Of a DNA stretch of 64,000 nt, positions 49,649 through 62,655 are shown piece by piece (the first letter of the stretch is position 1; every line of letters begins with the position of its first letter). The translations under genes and the position numbers were made by a program. The stretch comes from Saccharothrix ecbatanensis (GTDB lineage Bacteria; Actinomycetota; Actinomycetes; Mycobacteriales; Pseudonocardiaceae): assembly GCF_014205015.1 (NCBI RefSeq), contig NZ_JACHMO010000001.1, positions 2,914,001-2,978,000 of the forward strand. The letters run 5' to 3'. A model generated the notes under the pieces. It did no database searches and was not told where the DNA came from. It was given only the letters and a program-made list of their open reading frames with translations.

Positions 49649-50650
49649 TCAGAGGCGGTCGAGGGGGATGCGCGCTCGTGCGTCGGGCAGCCCGGCGAGC
49701 GGCCACGTGACGAGCAGGTCCAGCACGTCGTCCGCGGGCCGTTCGATGATGAAGTCCTGGGTTGCGGAGACCGTTCCTTCGCCGCCCGAGAACGAGCCGG
49801 ACTGCGCTCGGAGCCAGTGCGCCCGGCCGTCCCGGATCACCGCGATGGAGCCGCCCGGACCGTCCGTGCGGATTCGGGCCGCTTCACCGAGCGCCCGCGA
49901 CGAACGTCGGGACGGTCCGAAAGCGCTGCCCGCGATCGTCCGCGCCACATCACCCTCGGCGATGCTCGACAGGCCCGCGGAGAGCAGGTCCGGGCCGACG
50001 GCGACCAGGCGCGTGAGCACGACGGCCGCGCGACCGCCCCGGTGCAGGACGCGCGGGAGTGCGGCGGTGGTACCGGCCTCGATGGCCGCACCGCGCGGCC
50101 AGGAGGCCACCTGGTGCTCGAACGGCTCGGCGGTCGGCACGGCGGCGACCGGGGCGTCCCAGATCGACGTCGTCGCCCGCTCGACGGCGGCACGGTCGGG
50201 CAGCGGCACGGTGACCACCGACTCGGGGAAGCCGATCTCGGGCCAGGCGAGCACCAACGTGACCTCGTCGAACGCCGGCGGCAGCCGGAAGACCGAACGG
50301 TGGGTCGGCCCCGACTCGCCCCCGGCGTGGTCACCGCTGTTGGTCGCCAGGGAATCCGGGTAGCGCCAGTGCGCCAGGCCCGACTCGTCCAGCAGGCCGA
50401 GGCGCAGGTCGATGCCCTCGTCGACGGCCGGCAACAGCGTGCGAGGCGCGATCGCACCGGCCTTACGGGTGTCCCGCCGCCGTTCGTTGGCGTTGCGCCG
50501 GTCCAGCGGCCGTCGGGCCAGCAACTCGATCTCCAGCCCGGACACCCTGGACACCGCCCTGACCACGCCGACCGACAACTCCGGTCGGCGCACCAGGAAC
50601 CCACCAGGATGCGCCACGGCACCCAGAACCTGCTCGCTGTCCCCCGCCAT
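49649..50650 (-). CDS. Hypothetical protein with an internally repeated beta-rich module
   Basis: A 333-residue soluble protein I do not recognise. Two halves share a pattern: LVLAWPEIGFPESVVTVPL (about 145-163) and LLVTWPLAGLPDARARIPL (about 313-331), each preceded by a segment holding an Arg/Trp-rich strand (HWRYPDS and HWLRAQS). This suggests a duplicated beta-sandwich domain. It starts at ATG 50648-50650, 41 bp after the ebo-like operon on the same strand, so it may be the operon's last gene. No signal peptide or active site is evident. Confidence 0.6.
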   Translation of the reverse strand: MAGDSEQVLGAVAHPGGFLVRRPELSVGVVRAVSRVSGLEIELLARRPLDRRNANERRRDTRKAGAIAPRTLLPAVDEGIDLRLGLLDESGLAHWRYPDSLATNSGDHAGGESGPTHRSVFRLPPAFDEVTLVLAWPEIGFPESVVTVPLPDRAAVERATTSIWDAPVAAVPTAEPFEHQVASWPRGAAIEAGTTAALPRVLHRGGRAAVVLTRLVAVGPDLLSAGLSSIAEGDVARTIAGSAFGPSRRSSRALGEAARIRTDGPGGSIAVIRDGRAHWLRAQSGSFSGGEGTVSATQDFIIERPADDVLDLLVTWPLAGLPDARARIPLDRL

Positions 50651-50691
50651 CGAACCAGCATGCTCCCCGACTCCACCGCCGGGCAAACGGG

Positions 50692-52086
50692 TCAGCCCCT
50701 GTCAGCGAGCCCTTGCAGGTCGAGCAGGAGGTCACGGACGTCGGTGGCGGCGATCCGGCCGGTGCGTTCGACCGCGTCCGGCACTTGAGGGCTGGAGCAC
50801 AGCAGGACCGGGCCGTCTTCGGCGCGGTCGGGCAGCCTGCCGTGCGTGCCTCGTACGCAGGTCGGGTCGAGTGGCACGACGTTCATCGCGTAGCGGAGGC
50901 CGAGCTTCTTGCGGGCCAGGTTGAGGCCGGCTTTGGCCTTGGCGAGCGGGTCGTCCGGGTTGAAGAACAGCTCGGCCGGGTCGTAGCCGGGTTTGCGGTG
51001 GATCTCCACGCCGCGGGCGAAGTCGGGGGCACGGTCGTCGTCGGTCCAGTAGTAGTAGGTGAACCACGCGTCCGGCTCGGCCACCGCGATCAGCTCTCCG
51101 GACCGCTCGTGGTCGAGCCCGACGCCTGCCTGCTCCGAACGGCCCAGCACGACGTCCACGCCTGGCAGTTCGGCGAGGACGGCCCTGGTGCGGGGCACGT
51201 CGGCGGGGTCGGTGACGTAGACGTGGGCGATCTGGTGGTCGGCGACCGCGAACGCGCGGGAGGTCCACGGGTCCAGCAGCTCCATCCCGGCCTGTGTGTA
51301 GACCTCCAGCAGCCCGGCCCGGCGCAGCGCCCGGTTGATGTCCACCGGCCTGCGGGCGTCTGTGATGCCGTACTCCGACAGCGCCACGACGGTCGCGCCG
51401 GCCGCCTGCGCGTCGGCCAGCAGCGGGGCCAGGGCGGCGTCCACCTCGGTCGCCGCCTTGACCGCCTCCGGTGCGGACGGGCCGAAGCGCTGGAGGTCGT
51501 AGTCGAGGTGTGGGACGTAGACCAGCAGCAGGTCAGGGCGGTGCGACGCGAGAACGCGGCGGGCCGCGGCGACGATCCACTCGCTCGACTTCAGCGCCGC
51601 CGTCGGCCCCCAGTACTGGAACAGCGGGAACGCGCCCAGCTCGGCCACCAGCTCGTCGTGCAGCCCGGGTGGCCGGACATAGGCGTCGGGCGACTTGCGG
51701 CCGTCCGCGTGGTAGATCGGGCGCGGGGTCACGGTGACGTCGGTCGACGCGCCCATCGCGTACCACCAACAGACGTTCGCGGCGGTGTAGCCAGGGTGAG
51801 CGCGGCGCGCCGTCTCCCACACCTTCTCCCCCGTCACCAGCCGGTTGTGCTGGCGCCACAGGAACACCTCGCCCAGCTCACGGAAGTACCAGCCGTTGCC
51901 GACGATGCCGTGCTCGGCCGGGGTGAGGCCGGTGAGCAGTGTGGACTGCACGCTGCACGTCACGGCGGGCAGCACCGTGCCCAACTCGGCCTGCCAACCC
52001 CGTTCGCCCAAGGCGCGCAGGTTGGGCATGTGCGGCAGTAGCGCCGGCGTCATGCCGACGACGTCGATGACCACGAGCGGTTTCAC
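50692..52086 (-). CDS. Alkaline-phosphatase-superfamily phosphodiesterase (EboF-like)
   Basis: A 464-residue protein of the nucleotide pyrophosphatase/phosphodiesterase branch of the alkaline phosphatase superfamily. It shows the metal Asp at VVIDVVGMTP (about 4-13), the nucleophile Thr/Ser region LPAVTCSVQSTLLTGLTPAE (about 38-57), HGIVGNGW, and later VYVPHLDYDLQRFG (metal Asp/His) and the ADHQIAHVYV strand. A phosphorylated metabolite is the likely substrate. In ebo clusters a protein of this class is the terminal component. GTGA overlap (52083-52086) couples it to EboE. Confidence 0.85.
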   Translation of the reverse strand: MKPLVVIDVVGMTPALLPHMPNLRALGERGWQAELGTVLPAVTCSVQSTLLTGLTPAEHGIVGNGWYFRELGEVFLWRQHNRLVTGEKVWETARRAHPGYTAANVCWWYAMGASTDVTVTPRPIYHADGRKSPDAYVRPPGLHDELVAELGAFPLFQYWGPTAALKSSEWIVAAARRVLASHRPDLLLVYVPHLDYDLQRFGPSAPEAVKAATEVDAALAPLLADAQAAGATVVALSEYGITDARRPVDINRALRRAGLLEVYTQAGMELLDPWTSRAFAVADHQIAHVYVTDPADVPRTRAVLAELPGVDVVLGRSEQAGVGLDHERSGELIAVAEPDAWFTYYYWTDDDRAPDFARGVEIHRKPGYDPAELFFNPDDPLAKAKAGLNLARKKLGLRYAMNVVPLDPTCVRGTHGRLPDRAEDGPVLLCSSPQVPDAVERTGRIAATDVRDLLLDLQGLADRG

Positions 52087-53189
52087 GGTGCGCCTCCGAT
52101 GTGGTCGATGGCCCAGCGCAGCTCGGCGGCGATACCGGCCGCCAGATCCGTGCTCAGGCCGGGCAGGACGGTCCACGTGTAGGTCTCGACCTCGACGTGC
52201 GGCATGACGTCCGAGGCAGCCCGGACCGCTTCGGCCGCCGCGAGCAGCACGTCGGTCGTGGAGGTGAGCGGGGCGGCGGGCTCGGCGTGCAGCGGCACGT
52301 GGAAGTGCACCCGCCACGGATGCGACGCGGGCAGGTCGGTCAGCGCTTCGGGCAGGTCGTCGGCCGCGAGCACCCCGGTCGGCGTGTTCTCCCGGACCTG
52401 GTGCAGGTAACGCGGCTCGACGAACGCAGCGATGGCCCGCTTGCCCTCGTCCGTTCCCGGTTCGGCGACCTCCAGGGCCGCTGACGCCTGCACCTTGACC
52501 ACCGACAGCCCGGTCCGGTGGATCTCCTTGACCGCCTCGACCGGGTCGGCGAAGGACACGGCCAGGTGGCACGTGTCCAGGCAGATCCCGATGTGGTCGT
52601 GGTCCACCCGGCCGGCCAGCCAGCCCACCGCGTCGGCGACCGTGTCGAGCACGCACCCCGGCTCCGGTTCGACGGCCAGCTTGATCGGCCTGCCGTTGCG
52701 ATCGGCCTCGGCCCGCAGGTAACGCGCCAGCACGTCGAACGCGGCCTGGGCGCGCACGTCGTCGGTCTTGGTCCACGGCTCGCGCCAGGCCAGCGGCAAC
52801 GTCGAGATGCTGCCGTAGGACGCGGAGTCGGGCAGCAGGTCGGCCAGCACGGTCGCGCACGCCATCGTGTACGACAGGCGGCGTGGATCGGTCCACCTCG
52901 GCAGGTAGACCGAGTGCTTCACGACGTCCTGGTGGAACCCGCCGTACGGGAACGCGTTCAGCGTGCTCACCGTGAGCCCTCTGGCCCGCAGTTCCGCCGC
53001 CAGCCCGCGCCGGGCCGTAACGTCCTCGGCGAGGCCGCGCGCGACCGGTTCGGCCAGCCAGAGCCCGAGGGCGAGCGTGTCGACGCCCAGCTCCTCCCGC
53101 ACCGGGACGGCGTAGCGGTCGAGCTGGGCGATGATGCCGGGGAGGTCCTCGGCCGGGTGGACGTTCGTGCAGTAGGCGATGGACGTCAC
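52083..53189 (-). CDS. EboE-like TIM-barrel protein (metabolite traffic protein family)
   Basis: A 368-residue xylose-isomerase-like TIM barrel of the EboE type. Characteristic segments are IAYCTNVHPAEDLPGIIAQL (about 4-23), STLNAFPYGGFHQDVVKHSV, LAVEPEPGCVLDTV (catalytic-region Glu, about 172-185), ICLDTCHLAVSF and HFHVPLHAEP. It is annotated in the family as metabolite traffic protein; the reaction is not known. It starts at GTG 53189 inside the stop of the TatD-like gene and ends inside the start of the EboF-like gene. Confidence 0.85.
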   Translation of the reverse strand: MTSIAYCTNVHPAEDLPGIIAQLDRYAVPVREELGVDTLALGLWLAEPVARGLAEDVTARRGLAAELRARGLTVSTLNAFPYGGFHQDVVKHSVYLPRWTDPRRLSYTMACATVLADLLPDSASYGSISTLPLAWREPWTKTDDVRAQAAFDVLARYLRAEADRNGRPIKLAVEPEPGCVLDTVADAVGWLAGRVDHDHIGICLDTCHLAVSFADPVEAVKEIHRTGLSVVKVQASAALEVAEPGTDEGKRAIAAFVEPRYLHQVRENTPTGVLAADDLPEALTDLPASHPWRVHFHVPLHAEPAAPLTSTTDVLLAAAEAVRAASDVMPHVEVETYTWTVLPGLSTDLAAGIAAELRWAIDHIGGAP

Positions 53190-54037
53190 GGGCGTTCACC
53201 CCGCAGCACGGAGTTCCCGGCGAACGTGTCCCCCGCCGGGGTGTCGTCCAGCATCAGCCGCCCGCTCTGGCCGTAGAACTCCACCGGGTTGTCCCACAAC
53301 ACCTTGTCCACATCGGACTCGGCGAATCCGGCGGCGAGCATGGCCAGGCCGGTCTTGTGGGTCTTGAGCGGGTCGGACCGGCCCCAGTCGGCGGCGGAGT
53401 TCACCAGGACTCGTTCGGTGCCGTACTCGCGCAGGATCGCCACCATGCGGTCCTCGTCCATCTTGGTGTCGGGGTAGATGGAGAAGCCCATCCAGCAGCC
53501 GGAATCGGCGACGGCACGCACGGTCGTCTCGTTCAGGTGATCCACGGCCACCCGTTCAGGTGCCAGGCCGGATTCGCGGACGAGGTCGAGCGTGCGCGCG
53601 GTGCCGGCGGCCTTGTCCCGGTGCGGTGTGTGCACCAACGCGGGCAGACCGTGCCGCACCGCCAGCTCCAACTGCCGGGCGAACGCCTCGTCCTCCTCCG
53701 GGGTCATCGAGTCGTAACCGATCTCGCCGACCGCGACCACGCCGTCCTTGGCCAGGTAGCGCGGCAGCACGTCCAGGACTTCGACGCAGCGCGGGTCGTT
53801 CGCCTCTTTGGGGTTGAGCGCGATCGTGCAGTGGTGCGCGATGCCGAACTGCGCCGCGCGGAACCTCTCCCAGCCGATCAGGGCGTCGAAGTAGTCGGTG
53901 AACGACCCGACGTTCGTGCGCGGCTGCCCCAGCCAGAACGCCGGCTCGACCAACGCCCGCACACCGGCGGCGTACATCGCCTCGTAGTCGTCGGTGGTGC
54001 GGGAGGTCATGTGGATGTGCGGGTCGAAGATGCGCAT
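53186..54037 (-). CDS. TatD-like metal-dependent hydrolase (EboB-like)
   Basis: A 283-residue amidohydrolase-fold enzyme. Metal ligands can be placed at FDPHIHM (HxH, about 4-10), VGEIGYDS (Glu, about 97-104), LVHTPHRDK (His), VDHLNE (His) and NSAADWGRSD (Asp, about 213-222). Such TatD-like proteins occupy the EboB position in ebo clusters. It could hydrolyse an ester, amide or phosphodiester of the pathway product; this is inference. Both ends overlap the neighbouring genes by 4 bp (ATGA, GTGA). Confidence 0.85.
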   Translation of the reverse strand: MRIFDPHIHMTSRTTDDYEAMYAAGVRALVEPAFWLGQPRTNVGSFTDYFDALIGWERFRAAQFGIAHHCTIALNPKEANDPRCVEVLDVLPRYLAKDGVVAVGEIGYDSMTPEEDEAFARQLELAVRHGLPALVHTPHRDKAAGTARTLDLVRESGLAPERVAVDHLNETTVRAVADSGCWMGFSIYPDTKMDEDRMVAILREYGTERVLVNSAADWGRSDPLKTHKTGLAMLAAGFAESDVDKVLWDNPVEFYGQSGRLMLDDTPAGDTFAGNSVLRGERP

Positions 54038-55563
54038 CAGGGTTCGCTCCTCAGCAGGTCGAGCGCGTCATCCGGTACGGCACGGCCGGCGGCACGGCGT
54101 TCGTCGGCGAACGCGGCGACCATGCGCACCAGTTCCTCGTCCACGCGCTGGTCGAGGCCGGCAACGGCGGTCAGCGGAATGCCCAGGAACAGGCACTTCA
54201 GCACGCCGTGCCGCCACGAGTGCAGGTCGAGGTGTTCGGCGGCGAACGGCCCGAGCGCCGCCGCGACGAGCCTGGTGTCGTTGCTGCGCAACGCGTCCTT
54301 GACCAGTTCGACGCCCACTGTCGGCACCCGGTCACCGATAGACGCGAGCGCGCGCAGGACGCCGCGTCGTTCGGCGTCGTCGCCGTGGTGGTAGAGCGAC
54401 GTCAGCTCGGTGGCCAACTCCGCCGGTCCGACCGCCGACGCAAGGGCCACCAGCAGCTTGGTCCGGGCCACGTCGTCCACGGTCCCGTGGACCACGCCGA
54501 GCGGGTCGGACTCGCCTCGGACCGGCGTTCGCCCCACTTCGCGGCCGACGGCGGGAAAGAGCACGCCGATCGACGCGGGATCAGCCAACACCGCGCGCTC
54601 CGCTTCCGCGAGCCACGACTCGGCCGACACCGGCAACACCACACCCAGCTCCGCCGACACCCCACCTGGCTCCGGCAACGCCGCACCCAGCTCGGGCGAC
54701 ACTGCGCCCGACTCGGCCAGCCCCGCACCTGACCCGGGCAAGGCCGCACGCAGCGCACTCATGGCCCGACGTGCCACATCGGGCGCGGCGTGGCTGTGGC
54801 GGGGGAGTTCTACGGCGGCTAGGCCGGTGTAGTCGATCTCGGCCAGTGCGGCGAGCGTGGCCGGTAGGTCCAGATCGCCGTCACCGAACTCCAAATGCTC
54901 GTGCACGCCGGGCAACATGTCGTCCAGTTGCACGTTGAGCAGCAAGTCGCCCGCCCGGCGGATGCAGTCGGCCGCGTCCTCCGGTTCCACCGCCACGCAA
55001 TGCCCCACGTCCAGCGTGATCCCGAGCAGGTCAGGCGACCCGAGCTCCTCCCTCAGCCGAAGCGCCTGGTCCAAGCGTTCCACGAGCATCCCCGGCTCCG
55101 GTTCCAGCGCCAGCGGAACGCCGTGCTGGACCGCACCGTCCAGCGCCGCCGTCACACCAGCCCGCATCCGCTGCCACGCCTCCTCGTCATCCACGCCGGC
55201 GGGCACGATGCCGGACCAGAACGACACGCAGTCGGCGCCGAGGTCGGCCGCGACCCGCAGCGCCCGGATCAGGAAGTCGACCCGGACCTCCTGCGCCTCG
55301 CTGACCAGCGTCGGGTGGTGCTTGCGGCGGGGGTCGAGCAAGTAGCGCGCCCCCGTCTCCACCACGACACCCAGACCGAGGCCGTCGAGCCGGGCGGCGA
55401 CCTGGTCGACCCGCCGCGCGAGGTCAGGGGCGAACGGGTCGAGGTGGAAGTGGTCGAGTGTGAGCGCCACGCCGGTGTAACCGAGGTCGGCGATCATCGC
55501 CAAAGCGTCGTCCAGCCGGTGGTTCGCGAAGCCGTTCGTGCCGTACCCCAGACGGAACGTCAT
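54037..55563 (-). CDS. TIM-barrel sugar-isomerase-like domain fused to EboA
   Basis: A 508-residue fusion. Residues about 1-275 are an xylose-isomerase-like TIM barrel (LGYGTNGFANHRLDDALAMI, LALEPEPGMLVERLDQAL, LLGITLDVGHCVAVEPED). A repetitive Ala/Pro/Gly/Glu linker (ALPEPGG-type, about 275-320) follows. Residues about 320-508 are an EboA domain of helical repeats, ending RHGVLKCLFLGIPLTAVAGL, then DQRVDEELVRMVAAFADER, which is the EboA signature. In cyanobacterial ebo clusters EboA is separate. ATG 55563 overlaps the UbiA stop by 4 bp. Confidence 0.85.
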   Translation of the reverse strand: MTFRLGYGTNGFANHRLDDALAMIADLGYTGVALTLDHFHLDPFAPDLARRVDQVAARLDGLGLGVVVETGARYLLDPRRKHHPTLVSEAQEVRVDFLIRALRVAADLGADCVSFWSGIVPAGVDDEEAWQRMRAGVTAALDGAVQHGVPLALEPEPGMLVERLDQALRLREELGSPDLLGITLDVGHCVAVEPEDAADCIRRAGDLLLNVQLDDMLPGVHEHLEFGDGDLDLPATLAALAEIDYTGLAAVELPRHSHAAPDVARRAMSALRAALPGSGAGLAESGAVSPELGAALPEPGGVSAELGVVLPVSAESWLAEAERAVLADPASIGVLFPAVGREVGRTPVRGESDPLGVVHGTVDDVARTKLLVALASAVGPAELATELTSLYHHGDDAERRGVLRALASIGDRVPTVGVELVKDALRSNDTRLVAAALGPFAAEHLDLHSWRHGVLKCLFLGIPLTAVAGLDQRVDEELVRMVAAFADERRAAGRAVPDDALDLLRSEP

Positions 55564-56414
55564 GTCGGCCCCACCTTCCTGCTCAAAGCACGGGCCAGGG
55601 GCAGCACAAGCGCCAACCCGGCAGCGACGGCCGGTGACCCGCTGCGCGCGACGAGCGCGCTTTGCAGCGGCAGCATGCCGTGGATCCCCGCCTTCGTCGC
55701 CGATCGGACGGTGCCCGCTCCGGGATCGCGCACAGCGGCCAACTGGGCACGGCCGACCGTTGCCGCGTATCCCGCCGCACCCGCCAGCACGCCCAACCGG
55801 TTCCGCCAAGTCCGGACCGGGCGGGCGATCGTGGCCACCGCCGCCACGGCCGTCCCGCCCAGCACCGCCTTCACCGTGTTGGGTGAAGTGCCGTGCACCT
55901 CACCGCGAGACAACACCGTCACCCCGAACGTATGCCCGGCCATGACCACCGCGGCGGGCAGCGCGGTACCCGCCCGTGAACGACCCGCACCCATCAGGAC
56001 GTCCAGCGCACGGCACGCCGCCATGGCGAGAGGCCCGACCTTGGTGTCCTTGAGAACGGTGTCGTAGGACCACACCGCCACGGCGAGCGGCGCGGCGACG
56101 GCCAGCGAGTCACGGCCACCGGCCAACGCGGCCAGCCCGAGCCCGGTCGCACTGAGCGCCACAGCGGTGGCCAGCGCGGCACGAGGGCTGATCCGCCCGG
56201 ACGGGATCGGCCGTTCCGGGCGCTCGACGGCGTCCAGCTCACGGTCCGCCCAGTCGTTGAGCGCCATCCCCGACCAGTACAACGCGACCGACGACAACGG
56301 CAGCAATAAACGCCTACCGCGCAACGATGTGCCCGCCGCAGCAGCCCCGACGAGTGTGTCGCCGAGCACCGTCAACGCGGCCGGTGCCCGGACGAGTTCC
56401 GCGTACGCCTTCAC
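55560..56414 (-). CDS. UbiA-family prenyltransferase (EboC-like)
   Basis: A 284-residue membrane enzyme with about 7-9 helices. The first Asp-rich motif NDWADRELDAVERPERPIPS (about 53-72) binds the prenyl diphosphate through magnesium; the second region YDTVLKDTKVGPLAMAACRA, then LDVLMG (about 117-142) is also present. It would join a prenyl chain to a soluble acceptor, plausibly a cyclitol made by the preceding enzyme. The start is GTG 56414, whose TG lies within the synthase stop (GTGA), behind GGGGGAG. Confidence 0.88.
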   Translation of the reverse strand: MKAYAELVRAPAALTVLGDTLVGAAAAGTSLRGRRLLLPLSSVALYWSGMALNDWADRELDAVERPERPIPSGRISPRAALATAVALSATGLGLAALAGGRDSLAVAAPLAVAVWSYDTVLKDTKVGPLAMAACRALDVLMGAGRSRAGTALPAAVVMAGHTFGVTVLSRGEVHGTSPNTVKAVLGGTAVAAVATIARPVRTWRNRLGVLAGAAGYAATVGRAQLAAVRDPGAGTVRSATKAGIHGMLPLQSALVARSGSPAVAAGLALVLPLARALSRKVGPT

Positions 56415-57568
56415 CCCAACTCCCCCGCCCACCGGTACAGCTCACGAGTCTGCTCCGCGAACCGGTGCTCGTCACTGCCCAACGGGTCCTTGAAGAAGAA
56501 CGCCAACGCCCCCAACGCCCCCACCTCACCGGCCGCGTGCGCCGCGGCGACCAACCGCGCCAGGTCCAACACCAACGGCGCGGCCAACGACGAGTCCAGC
56601 CCGGTCCAGGTGAGCTGCAACGACATCCGCGCACCGAGGAACCCCTCGAACGACACGTGGTCCCACGCCGTCTTCTGCTCACCCAGATCCGGCACGTTGT
56701 CGATGTGCAGCGGCGCGGTGACGTCGTCCCCGAGCAACGCCGCCAGACCACGCGCCTTCGACACGATCTTGCTGTCCGCGTGCGCCGGGTCCTCCAACGT
56801 CGCCCCGTCACCACCACCGAGCAGATTCGTCCCCGCCCACGACCGCACCCGCAACGCCCGCGCGGTGAACATCGGCGCGAGCACCGTCCGCAACAACGTC
56901 TCACCCGTCTTGCCGTCACGCCCCGCGTACGGCAACCGCTCCCGACGGGCCAACTGATCAAGCGCGGCCAACGCGATACCGGTCGACGGCGTGAAGTCCA
57001 CGAACGGACAACCGGCCAGCAGCGCCGCGTACGCCGCCACGGAACTGGGCGGCAACACCGCACGCGCCGGATCGGCCAGCGCCTCCTCCAACAACGCCAG
57101 GTCGTCGTGCTCCGGCGTGGCCGGGACCGGCGGCTCCGTCGAGGACACGTTCACCACCACGACCCGCGCCAACCCGTGCCGCTCCCGGAAGTCCGCGATG
57201 TCCGCACCGAGCCGCCGAGCAGCGTCCGCCTGGCTGCCCCGGTGCGTCACCGGGTGATAGCCCTCCCGGATCTCCTCATCCGCCGCCCGCAACCCCGCCG
57301 CGATAGGCCCGAGCAGCCGGTGCGGCACCACACCGCTGTCGGCCAACTGCTCCGCCCGTTTGACCAACGCCGTGTCGACCACATCGTGCCCGCCGACGAC
57401 CAGGTCATCCCAGCCGGGCAACGGCGCCCCGGCCAGATCCGGTCGTTCGGTCACGCACCCGGTCGGCGGCGCCAAGCCCGCCCGCAACGCCAGCAGCCCG
57501 CTGATCGCCGTCGTCGCGACCGACCCTCGTGCGCCGATCAACCACAGCCCGGTGGGTTCGTCCGCCAT
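56411..57568 (-). CDS. Inositol-3-phosphate synthase-family cyclitol synthase
   Basis: A 385-residue NAD-dependent enzyme of the myo-inositol-1-phosphate synthase family, which converts glucose 6-phosphate to inositol phosphate. It shows LWLIGARGSVATTAISGLLA (NAD loop, about 8-27), VVVNVSSTEPPVP, FVDFTPSTGIA, GDGATLEDPAHADSKIVSKA (about 253-272), HIDNVPDLGEQKTAWDHVSF and FFFKDPLGSDEH. It heads the ebo-like operon, where cyanobacteria instead have EboD, a dehydroquinate-synthase-like cyclase. GGAGGGTGGCCA precedes ATG 57568. Confidence 0.88.
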   Translation of the reverse strand: MADEPTGLWLIGARGSVATTAISGLLALRAGLAPPTGCVTERPDLAGAPLPGWDDLVVGGHDVVDTALVKRAEQLADSGVVPHRLLGPIAAGLRAADEEIREGYHPVTHRGSQADAARRLGADIADFRERHGLARVVVVNVSSTEPPVPATPEHDDLALLEEALADPARAVLPPSSVAAYAALLAGCPFVDFTPSTGIALAALDQLARRERLPYAGRDGKTGETLLRTVLAPMFTARALRVRSWAGTNLLGGGDGATLEDPAHADSKIVSKARGLAALLGDDVTAPLHIDNVPDLGEQKTAWDHVSFEGFLGARMSLQLTWTGLDSSLAAPLVLDLARLVAAAHAAGEVGALGALAFFFKDPLGSDEHRFAEQTRELYRWAGELG

Positions 57569-57779: not shown

Positions 57780-60700
57780 TCAGCCCGCCTGCCCGCGCAC
57801 GGCGGCGATCACCACCTCCGCGTCGGCCACGAGCAGGTCACGCACGGGCTTGTCGGTCACCTTGCGGGCGACCGCGTCGCGGAAGCCCTCCAGCTTCTTG
57901 ACCGCCTCGGCCCGCTTGCCCTGGAACAGCAGCCGGCGGGCGTCGTCCAGGTCGCGGTCCAGTCCTCGTGCGACGGAGGACGGGATGCGCCCTTCCGCCG
58001 AGAACCGGTCGACCAGGGCCTGCAAGTCGGGCAGCGAGGTGGTGACGGTGAACGACACCACCAGCTCCCGCTTGTTGCCCGCCTTGTCGGTCGCGGTCAG
58101 CGCCAGGGTGTGCGCGCCGAGCGCGAGCGTGTGCATCGAGAGCGTCGCGCCGGACGTCACCGGCGCCCCGTCGAGCGTGGCGGTGACCGAGCCGACCCCG
58201 GACGCGGCGTCCTCGCCCTGCCAGGAGACCACCTTGTCCTCGGAGTGGCCGTAGCTCACGCCGTCGTACAGCCCGGTGAGCTTCACGGTCGGCGCGGTCG
58301 CGTCGACCTTGACCTGCACCGAACCGGGTTCGGACACGTTGCCCCGAACGTCGGTCGCCCGGTACTCCACCGCGTGGACGCCGTCACCCGACACCGGGAA
58401 CGGTGCGGTGTAAGGCTTCCAGTCGCCGCCGTCGACCCGGTACTCGGTGCTCGCCACGCCGGAACCTGCGTCCACCGCGTTGACCGTCACGGTCGGCGCC
58501 GTGGTCCACCAGCCGTCCGTGCCGGTGGGCTCCGCCGGGTTCACGGTCGCCGTGACCTCCGGCGCGGCGTTGTCCACGGACACCCGGAACCAGTCGAAGT
58601 CGACCGTCACCGGGCCCATGGTCTGCGACGGGCCGATCGCCATCAGGCCGATCTTCGCGTTCGGCACGTCGTTCGTCACCGGCGCGCCCATCGACCTCCA
58701 CGTGGTGCCGCCGTCGCTGATCTCGCCGCTGTAGGTGTTGCCCACCTTCTTCAGCCGGAGGTGCCACCACCCGCTCTCCGGTGTGCCGATGGTGATGCCC
58801 CGGTTGCCTCCGTCGCCGAACGAGCCGTTGTTCTCGGAGACGAGCTCCGCGCCCAACGTCACGGCCTGGCCCGGCGCGTTGCGGGCGACGACGTCGAACT
58901 TCACGTAGTCGTCGTCGTTGGCGTACACCATGAAGCCGGCGAGCTGCCACTGCTCGACCAGCGGCGCGGCCATCCTCGTCTCCACCGCCCAGTCACCCGC
59001 GGGTGCGTTCTGGAGGACGAAGTTGCGCGGGTTGTCGTTGCCGCCGCCGTTGATGTCGCCGGGCAGGGTGTCGATGCTCAGCACACCGTCGCCCATCCGC
59101 ATCGAAGGCAGGTCCGGCCGCACGACGGCGTTCCAGCGGCAGCCGTCGAGCCGGTCACCGTCGAACTCGTCGCTCGGCGCGATGGCCGGGTTCGGGGTGT
59201 CGCAGGTGATGGGCGGCATCGGCGGGTCACGCACGAGCACCGGCGTGGACACCTTCTTGGTCCGCCCGGCCGCGTCGGTGACCGTCACGGACGCGTAGTA
59301 CGTGCCGTCCGCCGCGTAGGTGTGGTCCACCGTGGGGCCGGACGCCGAAGTGCCGTCACCGAGGTCCCACGAGTAGGTGAACGGCGCGTCGTTCTCCGCG
59401 TCGGTCGCCGTCGCCGTGAGCTTGGTGGTGAACGGCGCGGTGCCGGTCGCCGGGTCCGCCGTGACGACGACGTGCGGCGCGGCGTTGACCGACACGCCCT
59501 TGCCGATGAACGTGAACGAGTCGAGCGTGAACTGGTTGGCCGGGCCGAGGAACACCGCGACCAGCTTCATCGTGCCGCCGGGGTTGGTGACCGCCACTTC
59601 GGGCGCGGTCACGTACCGGTCGACGCCGCCGGTCTCGGGCACCTGGATGGTGGCGACCAGGTCACCGGTCGGCGAGCCCTTGCGCAATTCGATCGAGCCG
59701 CCCGCGCTCGCGGACGCCACCCGTGCGGTGACGCGGTCGATCTGGTGCAGGTTCACCGGGTCGAAGGCGATCCAGTCGCCGTCGCCGATGTCCCCGACCC
59801 GCTTGCCCGATTCGGCGGCGGGGTCGTTGCCGACCAGGATGCCCGAGGACTCCTGGTGGAACTCGGCCTGCTTGTGCTTGGGCTGGATCACCGCGAGGTC
59901 GCGGCCGACCAGTGGCGGCAGGTCACCGGCGCCGCCGTCGGTGTAGGACGCGTCCACGGAGTAGAAGATGTCCGCGTCGGCGTGGCCTTCGTCCACCAGC
60001 GTGGCGAACTCGCCCTCGCACGCGTTGATCGGGTCGATCGGGTGCGCGTGCGCCTCGTGACCGAGGGCGGGCTGGACGACCGCCTTGGCGCAGTCCGGTT
60101 GGCCATCCTCCGGATCGGTGATGTCGAGGTCGAACGCGACCTTGTCACCGAAGTCGAAGAACCCGCCGTCGACCGGGGACGTCATGGTCACCGACGGCGC
60201 GGTGTTGCCGACCGTCACCTGGACGTTGGTCACACCGCTCTTGCCCGACGGATCGGTCACGGTGAGCTGCGCGTTGTAGACGCCGTTGGCGTTGTAGGTG
60301 TGGGTGGGCTCGGCCTCGGTGGACGTGCCGCCGTCGCCGAACGTCCACGCGTAGGTCAGCGCGGCGCCTTCGGGATCGTTCGACCCCGTGCCGGAGAACT
60401 TGACCGGCAGCGGCGCCTGACCCGACGACGGGGTGGCCGTCGCCTTCGCGGTCGGCCGCCGGTTGCCCTGCGTGTAGTCGATCCGGTAGATGCCCGAGTC
60501 CGGGTTGTCCCGGCCGTACCCACCGCCCCACTCCACGACGTACATGGCGCCGTCAGGACCGAACTTCATGTCCATCGGGGCCAGCGGCGCGGCGCTCTTG
60601 AACCACTCGTTGATCTTGAGCAGGCCACCCTGGTCGTCCTGCGAGAACGTCCAGAACTTGTTGCGCGTCCAGTCGTAGTAGAACGGCTTCCCGTCGTAGT

Positions 60701-62591
60701 ACTCGGGGAACTTGACGTCCGACACCAGGTTCGGGTCGAACTCGTAGCGCGGCCCGGCCATCGGGGCCTCGCCACCCGTGCCCATCTCGGGGAAGTCGTC
60801 GCCCTCGGCCCCGTTGCCGTACCACACGTCGGCGGCCTTGGCCGGCGGCAGCGTGGTCAGACCGGTGTTGTTCGGCGAGTCGTTCACCGTGTTGCCGCAG
60901 TCGAACTTCGCCTTCGACGTGTTCGTGGCGAAGTCGAAGTCGTTGAACGGGGTGTTGTTGCCCACGCAGTACGGCCAGCCGTAGTTGCCGGGCTCCTTGA
61001 TGACGTTCCACTCGACGATGCCGCCGGGGCCGCGCGACGGGTTGTCCCCGCCCGCGTCCGGGCCGTAGTCGGCCATGTAGACCGTGCCGTCGGAGGCGAC
61101 GTTGAAGCGGAACGGGTTGCGGAAGCCCATGGCGTAGATCTCGGGCCTGGTCTTCTCCGTGCCCGGCGCGAACATGTTGCCCGCCGGGACGGTGTAGGTG
61201 CCGTCCGCCTCCGGGTGCACGCGCAGGATCTTGCCTCGCAGGTCGTTCGTGTTCGCCGACGTCTTCTGCGCGTCGAACAGGTCACGGCCGGGGCGCTCGT
61301 CGATCGGGGCGTACCCGCTGGACTGGAACGGGTTGGTGTCGTCGCCGACGCCGATGTACAGGTTGCCGTTCGGCCCGAACTCCAGGTACCCGCCGGTGTG
61401 GCCGGGCTCCTCGCGGCGTGACGCCGGGATCTCCAGCAGGACCTTCTCGCTGTCCGGCTGGATCACGTTGCCCGTGGCGGTGAACCGCGAGACCCGGTTG
61501 ATCTCGGCCAGGCCGGGCGGCGAGTAGTACACGTACAGGTGGTTGCTGGTGGCGAAATCGGGTGCCAGGGCCAACGACACCAGGCCGTCCTCGCCGCCGC
61601 TGTAGACGGGCAGGGACAACGCGGTGGAGGTGGCGCCGGTGGCCGGGTCGTGCACGCGGATCTCACCGAGCAGCTCGGTGTAGAACACCCGGCCGTCCGG
61701 CGCGATGTCCAGCGTCGTCGGCGCGTGGGTGCCGTCGTCCAGCGCCACCTTCTCGAAGTTGCTGTCGACCGTCGCGCCGCAGTCCGACGACACGACGCCG
61801 GCGGCGGTCCGGATGCCGCCCAGGACGTGCGCGACGAAGTTCGGCTCGGTGTAGTCGGCGACGTTGTGGCCCATGCCGGTCGCCCAGACCCGGCCGCCCT
61901 CGGCGTCACGGCACCACGAGATCGGGTGGTCGTGGCCCATGGCCTCGGAGCCCGGGTCGTAGGTCTTCTCGTCCACCTCGACCAGCGGGTGGACCTTGCC
62001 GCGCATGCTCGGCTTGAAGTTGTACCACTCCTCGACCTTCTGCCAGCGGTCCGGCAGGTGCCTGGTCGACTCGTGCACCTCGTCCACCTGGTACGAGGTG
62101 GCGGTGAGGCCGTTGGCGGAGTGCGCGGTCATGTGCGCGCCGCCGTTGACGAAGTCGTCCCACCACGGGAAGGACGACTCGATGTTCATGTCGGTCGCGT
62201 TGTGGATGGCGACGATGCCGCCGCCGTTGTTGACGTACTTCCGCACGGCGGCGCGCTGGGCGTCGGTGTCCCAGACCATGCCGCCGTTCTGGAGCATGAT
62301 CACGACGTCGAACCCGGCCAGGTTCTCGTCGGTGAACTGGGCGGAGTCGTCGCTGTGCACGACCTCGAAGTGGTTGTCCACGGCGAGCTTCTCGACCATC
62401 GCGATGCCGGCCGGGATCGAGTCGTGCCGGTAGGCGCCGGCGGCGGTCTTGGTGAACAGCAGGGCCCGGAATTCGGCCGGCGCCTCGTGGCCGGGGTGGG
62501 CCGCGGCGGTCGCCGGGGCCAGGCCGACCACGACGAGCAAGGCCAGCACGAGCGTCAGGACAGTGCGCAAGCGGACTACAGGGGTTCTCAC
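57780..62591 (-). CDS. Very large secreted ThuA / sorbosone-dehydrogenase / PKD multidomain protein
   Basis: A 1603-residue exported protein. Rough order: signal peptide (1-32); ThuA domain (about 40-260; LLFTKTAAGAYRHDSIPAGI, MLQNGG, IHNATD); glucose/sorbosone-dehydrogenase propeller (about 275-715; HTGGYLEFGPNGNLYIGVGD, GFRNPFRFN); PKD domain (about 725-800; TFGDGG); ligand-binding region (about 830-1065); second PKD (about 1075-1150); LamG/DUF1349-like domain (about 1165-1360); Ig-like repeats (about 1365-1505); FIMAH-like helical tail. It probably oxidises or cleaves extracellular sugars. GTG 62591 follows GGAGGATC. A sugar epimerase gene lies upstream in the same operon. Confidence 0.85.
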   Translation of the reverse strand: MRTPVVRLRTVLTLVLALLVVVGLAPATAAAHPGHEAPAEFRALLFTKTAAGAYRHDSIPAGIAMVEKLAVDNHFEVVHSDDSAQFTDENLAGFDVVIMLQNGGMVWDTDAQRAAVRKYVNNGGGIVAIHNATDMNIESSFPWWDDFVNGGAHMTAHSANGLTATSYQVDEVHESTRHLPDRWQKVEEWYNFKPSMRGKVHPLVEVDEKTYDPGSEAMGHDHPISWCRDAEGGRVWATGMGHNVADYTEPNFVAHVLGGIRTAAGVVSSDCGATVDSNFEKVALDDGTHAPTTLDIAPDGRVFYTELLGEIRVHDPATGATSTALSLPVYSGGEDGLVSLALAPDFATSNHLYVYYSPPGLAEINRVSRFTATGNVIQPDSEKVLLEIPASRREEPGHTGGYLEFGPNGNLYIGVGDDTNPFQSSGYAPIDERPGRDLFDAQKTSANTNDLRGKILRVHPEADGTYTVPAGNMFAPGTEKTRPEIYAMGFRNPFRFNVASDGTVYMADYGPDAGGDNPSRGPGGIVEWNVIKEPGNYGWPYCVGNNTPFNDFDFATNTSKAKFDCGNTVNDSPNNTGLTTLPPAKAADVWYGNGAEGDDFPEMGTGGEAPMAGPRYEFDPNLVSDVKFPEYYDGKPFYYDWTRNKFWTFSQDDQGGLLKINEWFKSAAPLAPMDMKFGPDGAMYVVEWGGGYGRDNPDSGIYRIDYTQGNRRPTAKATATPSSGQAPLPVKFSGTGSNDPEGAALTYAWTFGDGGTSTEAEPTHTYNANGVYNAQLTVTDPSGKSGVTNVQVTVGNTAPSVTMTSPVDGGFFDFGDKVAFDLDITDPEDGQPDCAKAVVQPALGHEAHAHPIDPINACEGEFATLVDEGHADADIFYSVDASYTDGGAGDLPPLVGRDLAVIQPKHKQAEFHQESSGILVGNDPAAESGKRVGDIGDGDWIAFDPVNLHQIDRVTARVASASAGGSIELRKGSPTGDLVATIQVPETGGVDRYVTAPEVAVTNPGGTMKLVAVFLGPANQFTLDSFTFIGKGVSVNAAPHVVVTADPATGTAPFTTKLTATATDAENDAPFTYSWDLGDGTSASGPTVDHTYAADGTYYASVTVTDAAGRTKKVSTPVLVRDPPMPPITCDTPNPAIAPSDEFDGDRLDGCRWNAVVRPDLPSMRMGDGVLSIDTLPGDINGGGNDNPRNFVLQNAPAGDWAVETRMAAPLVEQWQLAGFMVYANDDDYVKFDVVARNAPGQAVTLGAELVSENNGSFGDGGNRGITIGTPESGWWHLRLKKVGNTYSGEISDGGTTWRSMGAPVTNDVPNAKIGLMAIGPSQTMGPVTVDFDWFRVSVDNAAPEVTATVNPAEPTGTDGWWTTAPTVTVNAVDAGSGVASTEYRVDGGDWKPYTAPFPVSGDGVHAVEYRATDVRGNVSEPGSVQVKVDATAPTVKLTGLYDGVSYGHSEDKVVSWQGEDAASGVGSVTATLDGAPVTSGATLSMHTLALGAHTLALTATDKAGNKRELVVSFTVTTSLPDLQALVDRFSAEGRIPSSVARGLDRDLDDARRLLFQGKRAEAVKKLEGFRDAVARKVTDKPVRDLLVADAEVVIAAVRGQAG

Positions 62592-62655
62592 GATCCTCCA
62601 CACACTTTCGGTTCCGCCCGGCGTGCCGGCGCCGGTGAGTCGGGGGACACGCGGG

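Follow-up and report, generated by a model that had tools for sequence, protein, structure and literature searches.

The ebo cluster of many actinobacteria differs from the usual one in that the cyclase EboD has been exchanged for MIPS, an unrelated ring-forming enzyme. One such cluster was analyzed here in a window of 64,000 nucleotides from Saccharothrix ecbatanensis (contig NZ_JACHMO010000001.1, positions 2,914,001 to 2,978,000), where six genes, all on the minus strand, run from position 57568 to 50692 of the window in the order MIPS, EboC-like UbiA, TIM-EboA, EboB, EboE and EboF. The exchange is well supported by a survey of ebo loci. As to function, we assign a probability of about one half to a reading in which MIPS and a second TIM barrel replace EboD and the product is a prenylated, membrane-anchored cyclitol. 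The six genes are as follows.

56411 to 57568, minus strand: MIPS-family cyclase (inositol-3-phosphate synthase), 385 aa, first gene of the operon, replacing EboD; PF07994 172.4 bits, PF01658 103 bits
55560 to 56414, minus strand: EboC-like UbiA prenyltransferase, 284 aa from the second GTG (the open reading frame opens at 56432); PF01040 69.6 bits, NF045897 370.5 bits
54037 to 55563, minus strand: xylose-isomerase-like TIM barrel fused to an EboA domain, 508 aa; PF01261 136.5 bits, NF035938 158.7 bits (cut-off 50)
53186 to 54037, minus strand: EboB, TatD/amidohydrolase-like; PF01026 52.1 bits
52083 to 53189, minus strand: EboE, TIM barrel; NF035939 422.6 bits (cut-off 250)
50692 to 52086, minus strand: EboF-like phosphodiesterase/phosphatase; PF01663 218.6 bits

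MIPS replaces EboD in actinobacterial ebo clusters

Ebo loci were drawn from genome samples in which EboE was found in 19 of 396 genomes of the phylum, 103 of 200 of the family and 98 of 394 of the class. From these samples 100 actinobacterial loci (60, then 40) were chosen for genus spread, 19 from the phylum, 41 from the family and 40 from the class sample. The 85 non-actinobacterial loci comprised 80 EboF loci of named genomes and five Chloroflexota loci. Since these were the best 80 of 580 retrieved with an alignment led by an EboD-type EboF, the sample outside Actinobacteriota favors EboD clusters. For each locus, all open reading frames (ORFs) in a stretch of up to ~19 kb were scanned with hidden Markov models (HMMs) built from those same loci. 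Stretches containing EboB, EboE and EboF were counted as core clusters, of which 88 were actinobacterial and 73 came from other phyla.

MIPS was found in 82 of the 88 actinobacterial core clusters, EboD in one and neither cyclase in five. Among the 73 core clusters of other phyla, 71 contained EboD, none MIPS and two neither. The two cyclases were never found together, be it in the 161 core clusters or in the 185 loci overall, and tblastn maps showed an identical order of the genes found across all MIPS-type loci. A MIPS-family cyclase in EboD's place, as proposed in an earlier sequence-only reading of the window, is therefore well supported, and the neighborhood survey shows that MIPS is kept together with the other five genes. 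By sequence, the swap is strict in these samples. In a less biased check centered on Chloroflexota, six of 201 genomes carried EboE and all six were of the EboD type. EboC of the MIPS type was found over the cut-off in none of 299 Hyphomicrobium-centered and none of 296 Arenibacter-centered genomes, with matches below the cut-off in 3 and 26, respectively.

The five actinobacterial core clusters without either cyclase were inspected individually. Locus L080 is cut by a contig end, L057 is the second of two copies in its genome, the other of which (L059) has MIPS, and in L074 EboE is in two pieces and MIPS lies on another contig of the genome. L223 remains unexplained; the only MIPS of its genome is on another contig. 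L106 has its MIPS on the same strand of the same contig, at a distance of ~26 kb. In the genus of this locus (L106, L199, L200, L201) such a separation of MIPS from the other operon genes is seen in three genomes, and the remaining genome has MIPS on another contig. The idea that a transporter had taken the place of MIPS at L106, where sugar ABC transporter-like genes were seen by eye at the operon head, was therefore rejected. The copy without MIPS at L057 (12602-16709) has genes for a FAD-dependent oxidoreductase-like and an inositol-monophosphatase-like protein upstream, as judged by eye from the translations. The lone EboD cluster of the actinobacterial phylum, L060 (6385-12365), belongs to a genome with no MIPS match.

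Twelve actinobacterial loci were left out of the core count for want of a core gene (L098, L099, L113, L218, L226, L232, L233, L236-L240); three of them have MIPS (L098, L099, L239) and none EboD. The 12 loci of other phyla left out for the same reason (L125, L129, L130, L132, L134, L152, L160, L166, L180, L182, L186, L188) include five with EboD and none with MIPS. Among the actinobacterial loci left out, L236, L237, L238 and L240 encode EboE-like proteins that match only profile positions 1-242, with no other core ebo genes in the stretch. At L218, L226, L232 and L233 EboE is full-length (33-38% identity), and it was the sole ebo gene matched there.

Gene coupling in the operon

The six genes and their ends are as first read, and family scans of every gene confirmed the family names. 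The wording 'ebo-like' was also apt, as the UbiA protein scores below NCBI's cut-off for EboC (NF035940, 155 bits against 250) and has a family of its own, NF045897 'SCO3242 family prenyltransferase' (cut-off 260). Of the five successive 4-bp GTGA/ATGA overlaps described earlier, four are of 4 bp and one is actually of 1 bp. The MIPS/EboC junction is GTGA, provided that EboC starts at the second GTG (56414), a start that gives the protein the length of many close relatives; the EboC/TIM-EboA junction is ATGA, TIM-EboA and EboB share 1 bp (TGATG), and the EboB/EboE and EboE/EboF junctions are both GTGA. Tight coupling is general among actinobacterial loci: in the first 60, with start codons picked by a script, an overlap or a gap of at most 30 nt was found at 48 of 53 MIPS-EboC and 53 of 58 EboE-EboF junctions. 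The fusion of the TIM barrel to EboA is not general, since 28 of 55 loci have the two in a single ORF.

EboB and EboF of the window are 42% and 52% identical to their counterparts in the EboD-type locus L060, and EboB has many invariant H/D/E columns. A signal peptide was not seen in the window EboF, its N-terminus being judged by eye. Just downstream of the operon lies an ORF of 345 aa (49649-50686, minus strand) with no Pfam or NCBIfam match.

A probable single cyclase switch and a second marker gene

A tree of EboB, EboE and EboF was calculated by a 'quick' method for 68 of 159 loci. In this tree a single branch (SH-aLRT 100) separates the MIPS clusters from the EboD clusters. One switch of the cyclase, inherited with the whole cluster, would explain this tree, and the direction of the switch hinges on the root. 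The EboD cluster of L060 groups with the Chloroflexota EboD clusters (SH-aLRT 93) and was probably acquired by horizontal transfer.

The xylose-isomerase-like TIM barrel is a second gene marking the MIPS type: it is present in 80 of the 82 clusters with MIPS and in none of the 73 core clusters of other phyla. Its fusion to EboA, though not MIPS, had been noticed in 2016 (PMC5133447, section 3.4.4). The TIM domain of the window protein resembles epimerases, and lower in the list of matches stand 2-hydroxy-3-keto-glucal hydratase and IolI. For the TIM-EboA model (pTM 0.57) the 50 Foldseek matches listed are all TIM-barrel sugar epimerases and their kin, so no claim is made on the fold of the EboA domain. 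Roughly half of the first 60 loci have further PF01261 TIM-barrel proteins beside the operon (tblastn counts of 33 and 35, which may overlap because the families cross-match), for example at L077:11489-13360, and one of these flanking proteins has a Tat-like N-terminus as judged by eye.

The cluster MIPS and other MIPS genes of the genome

The window MIPS contains both Pfam domains and the catalytic Lys and Asn. Its best solved relatives are the MIPS of Archaeoglobus fulgidus (1u1i, 206 bits) and its mutants; the scores are 177 bits to 7nwr, 37 bits to 6k96 and 27 bits to 1gr0. K271, K360 and N248 of the window protein are the counterparts of the residues that were altered in the mutant chains 3qvw, 3qvx and 3qw2 of the A. 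fulgidus enzyme; all three are conserved in 55 of 55 cluster MIPS, as is K299, with K267 conserved in 54 of 55. By sequence, the active site of the cluster MIPS is intact. The archaeal and Bacteroides-type enzymes (1u1i, 7nwr) have the same Pfam domains and catalytic residues; in contrast to them, the cluster MIPS sits in an ebo operon, and its activity is a prediction.

Housekeeping actinobacterial Ino1 (1gr0 type) is not the closest solved relative of the window MIPS, and the genome has its own Ino1 as a separate gene near 7.357 Mb (L004:1447-2586, 622 bits to 1gr0), which makes a housekeeping role for the cluster MIPS unlikely. Two more MIPS genes of the ebo type were seen in the same genome. 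An orphan at ~1.887 Mb (L196:4716-10159), 83% identical, has as neighbors a TIM barrel and, judged by eye, genes for a Gfo/Idh-like oxidoreductase and a sugar-binding lipoprotein-like product; none of the other ebo genes was matched there. The operon head is partially duplicated at ~0.907 Mb (L197:9013-10173 and flanks), where an ORF of 386 aa, containing a stretch 99% identical to the window MIPS, has fragments of a TIM-barrel gene in front of it and a remnant of EboC behind it.

The EboC-like prenyltransferase

A UbiA membrane enzyme is present in 86 of 88 actinobacterial and 71 of 73 other core clusters. The window enzyme has the first Asp-rich motif (NDxxDxxxD), and its AlphaFold2 model (mean pLDDT 95.7) shows the fold of UbiA and of digeranylgeranylglyceryl phosphate (DGGGP) synthase. 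The EboC profile scores 90 bits for DGGGP synthase, 50 for chlorophyll synthase and 34 for UbiA. The top structural match of the model is, by a narrow margin, ApUbiA, and chlorophyll synthase is not among the structural matches listed. Counterparts of N62/D66/D70 and Y125/K130 of DGGGP synthase (6m31) are present in EboC; in contrast to its D180/D183/D187, no like conserved Asp-rich motif was found. In the sequence alignment, to which this search was confined, no column after residue 144 has Asp in more than 90% of either EboC type, and in the expected region of the second motif only E178 is near-invariant.

The two EboC types differ at positions nearly fixed in one or both of them, namely A18 in the MIPS type versus N in the EboD type, D144 versus N, V or A, H167 versus Y, and Q257 versus D or N (51 and 58 sequences). 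Y52 and R141 are common to both and match, by spacing, Tyr56 and Arg145 of Ubi-297. Relatives of the EboD type farnesylated six of 14 aromatic acceptors in vitro, best on quinolines, and the acceptors described in the available text of that report include no cyclitol (PMC9235831).

Sugar dehydrogenase genes at ebo loci

Upstream of MIPS the window encodes a large protein with a GSDH domain, whose N-terminus looks secretion-like by eye. A sigma-70 and terminator scan of the gap between the two genes gave no match, such a scan being uninformative in a high-GC actinomycete. GSDH genes, with or without ThuA/PKD/CBM6, were located as follows.

57780 to 62603, minus strand, window: ThuA-GSDH-PKD-CBM6-FIMAH protein, identified by family scan
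Other ebo loci: GSDH at L134, L140, L143, L145, L155, L156, L159, L173, L177, L178, L182, L183 and L187

Counted with an HMM built here, GSDH proteins occur in 53 of 88 actinobacterial core clusters, in 51 cases no more than 3 kb from an ebo gene. For the core clusters of other phyla the count is 15 of 73, in 14 cases at a distance of up to 1 kb. In several clusters GSDH lies between ebo genes. From the genome-wide density about 1.5 to 1.6 would be expected per whole locus set. This background was derived from PF07995 in 39 and 30 genomes (224 matches in ~230 Mb and 168 in ~193 Mb, genome sizes summed by hand); the 39 genomes include GSDH-positive loci, and the loci are not independent of each other. 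As read from these gene neighborhoods, the recurrence of GSDH appears to link ebo to extracellular sugar oxidation across both cyclase types.

Proposed function and alternative explanations

MIPS and EboD-type cyclases are unrelated, and both close a sugar-phosphate ring after NAD+-dependent oxidation. The exchange of cyclases with similar chemistry in an otherwise conserved cluster therefore supports a cyclitol step and a cyclitol substrate. In the order of reactions that we infer, MIPS would convert glucose 6-phosphate to inositol 3-phosphate, the TIM barrel, EboE and EboB would adjust the ring, with the TIM protein possibly acting as an adaptor, and EboF would remove or hydrolyse a phosphate. 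The membrane enzyme EboC would attach an isoprenoid chain to the ring, probably through an ether bond. DGGGP synthase acts in this way on a glycerol phosphate, and its O-prenylation of a polyol phosphate is a chemical precedent (PMC9385802). The product would be a membrane-anchored cyclitol acting at the cell surface, and the co-encoded secreted sugar dehydrogenase could oxidise it or a partner. A more specific proposal is tentative: one switch would have led to different cyclases, MIPS with a TIM-barrel enzyme on one side and the heptulose-type EboD on the other, and the product in actinobacteria would be an ether-linked prenyl-inositol whose headgroup is handled extracellularly by the PQQ-type sugar dehydrogenase.

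The cyclitol might be only a precursor that the TIM-barrel protein together with EboE/EboB dehydrates to a polyhydroxylated aromatic ring, which EboC would then C-prenylate, in the manner of most UbiA enzymes, to a lipoquinol-like molecule. The in vitro farnesylation of aromatic acceptors by EboC relatives, the resemblance of the TIM domain to epimerases and, further down, to the hydratase and IolI, and the narrow lead of ApUbiA among structural matches are consistent with this route, and PQQ-type GSDH neighbors would suit a redox lipid. However, the EboC profile is nearer to DGGGP synthase than to 4-hydroxybenzoate UbiA (90 versus 34 bits) and no gene of the cluster is recognizable by family as an aromatising enzyme, so that we regard an aromatic product as rather doubtful. 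It is unlikely that the cluster MIPS has changed its substrate and makes EboD's cyclitol or another one instead of inositol phosphate: the residues altered in the A. fulgidus mutants are invariant and the score to 1u1i far exceeds that to 6k96, even though the remaining enzymes are common to EboD clusters and the MIPS family includes a synthase of a five-membered cyclitol phosphate (6k96), so such a change of product does occur.

That MIPS merely boosts the supply of inositol (as osmolyte or for phosphatidylinositol or mycothiol) while UbiA uses an unrelated acceptor would fit the orphan ebo-type MIPS of L196, outside any ebo cluster, but with a separate housekeeping Ino1 and the strict position and exclusivity of MIPS versus EboD in the samples it appears quite improbable. 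Finally, the region could serve the catabolism of keto-sugars, secreted GSDH, ThuA, a 3-keto-disaccharide hydrolase and TIM barrels degrading a glycan and the ebo genes handling an intermediate, with no lipid involved. ThuA, GSDH, CBM6, DUF1080 and additional PF01261 proteins do stand beside many actinobacterial loci, and in the literature searched no paper on 3-keto-glycoside/DUF1080/ThuA was found. Yet GSDH is missing from the stretch in 35 of the 88 actinobacterial and 58 of the 73 other core clusters, against the near-universal presence of UbiA, and this explanation is very unlikely.

Relation to known systems

The closest known systems are the canonical cluster eboA-F of Bacteroidetes, Cyanobacteria, Leptospira and eustigmatophyte plastids, as described in PMC5133447, and the EDB cluster of Pseudomonas fluorescens grouped with it (PMC6282210). 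The canonical cluster shares with that of the window the EboA domain, EboB, an EboC-like UbiA, EboE and an EboF-like protein in one operon, whereas the window lacks EboD and has MIPS and an extra TIM barrel, and its EboC has residues specific to its type and is placed by NCBI in a family of its own (NF045897). In Nostoc, ebo has been linked to the export of scytonemin precursors, and a lipid carrier was considered in 2018 (PMC6282210). An isoprenoid-cyclitol product was already proposed for EboD-type clusters by Yurchenko et al., 2016 (PMC5133447, section 3.7). The prenyl-cyclitol pathway that the sequence-only reading called undescribed was thus published as an idea for EboD clusters, but no mention of the MIPS form was found in the open-licence literature searched. 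Two Saccharomonospora loci are drawn in a figure of PMC9235831, the text of which never mentions inositol.

By the name of its NCBI model, SCO3242 of Streptomyces coelicolor belongs to the same UbiA family as the window EboC. Other ebo genes presumably flank SCO3242 and SCO3243. In PMC3610822, which counts these two within the CDA antibiotic cluster, they carry the labels 'Putative transferase' and 'Myo-inositol phosphate synthase', and the passages on them assign no role. In BE-40644 biosynthesis, as outlined in PMC5133447, a cyclitol-derived ring is farnesylated by an enzyme of the UbiA superfamily, as we propose here; there, however, the ring is made by EEVS and the prenyltransferase is said not to be EboC.

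Significance

Ebo is spread over many phyla, and no product was found in the literature searched. The swap of cyclases provides independent evidence for a cyclitol as the starting ring. The MIPS form offers cheap and defined substrates, glucose 6-phosphate and inositol 3-phosphate, and hence the acceptor of EboC can be tested at once. The presence of GSDH at clusters of both cyclase types may serve as a lead on where the product acts. If the proposed product is correct, an ether-linked prenyl-inositol would represent a new class of bacterial cyclitol lipid.

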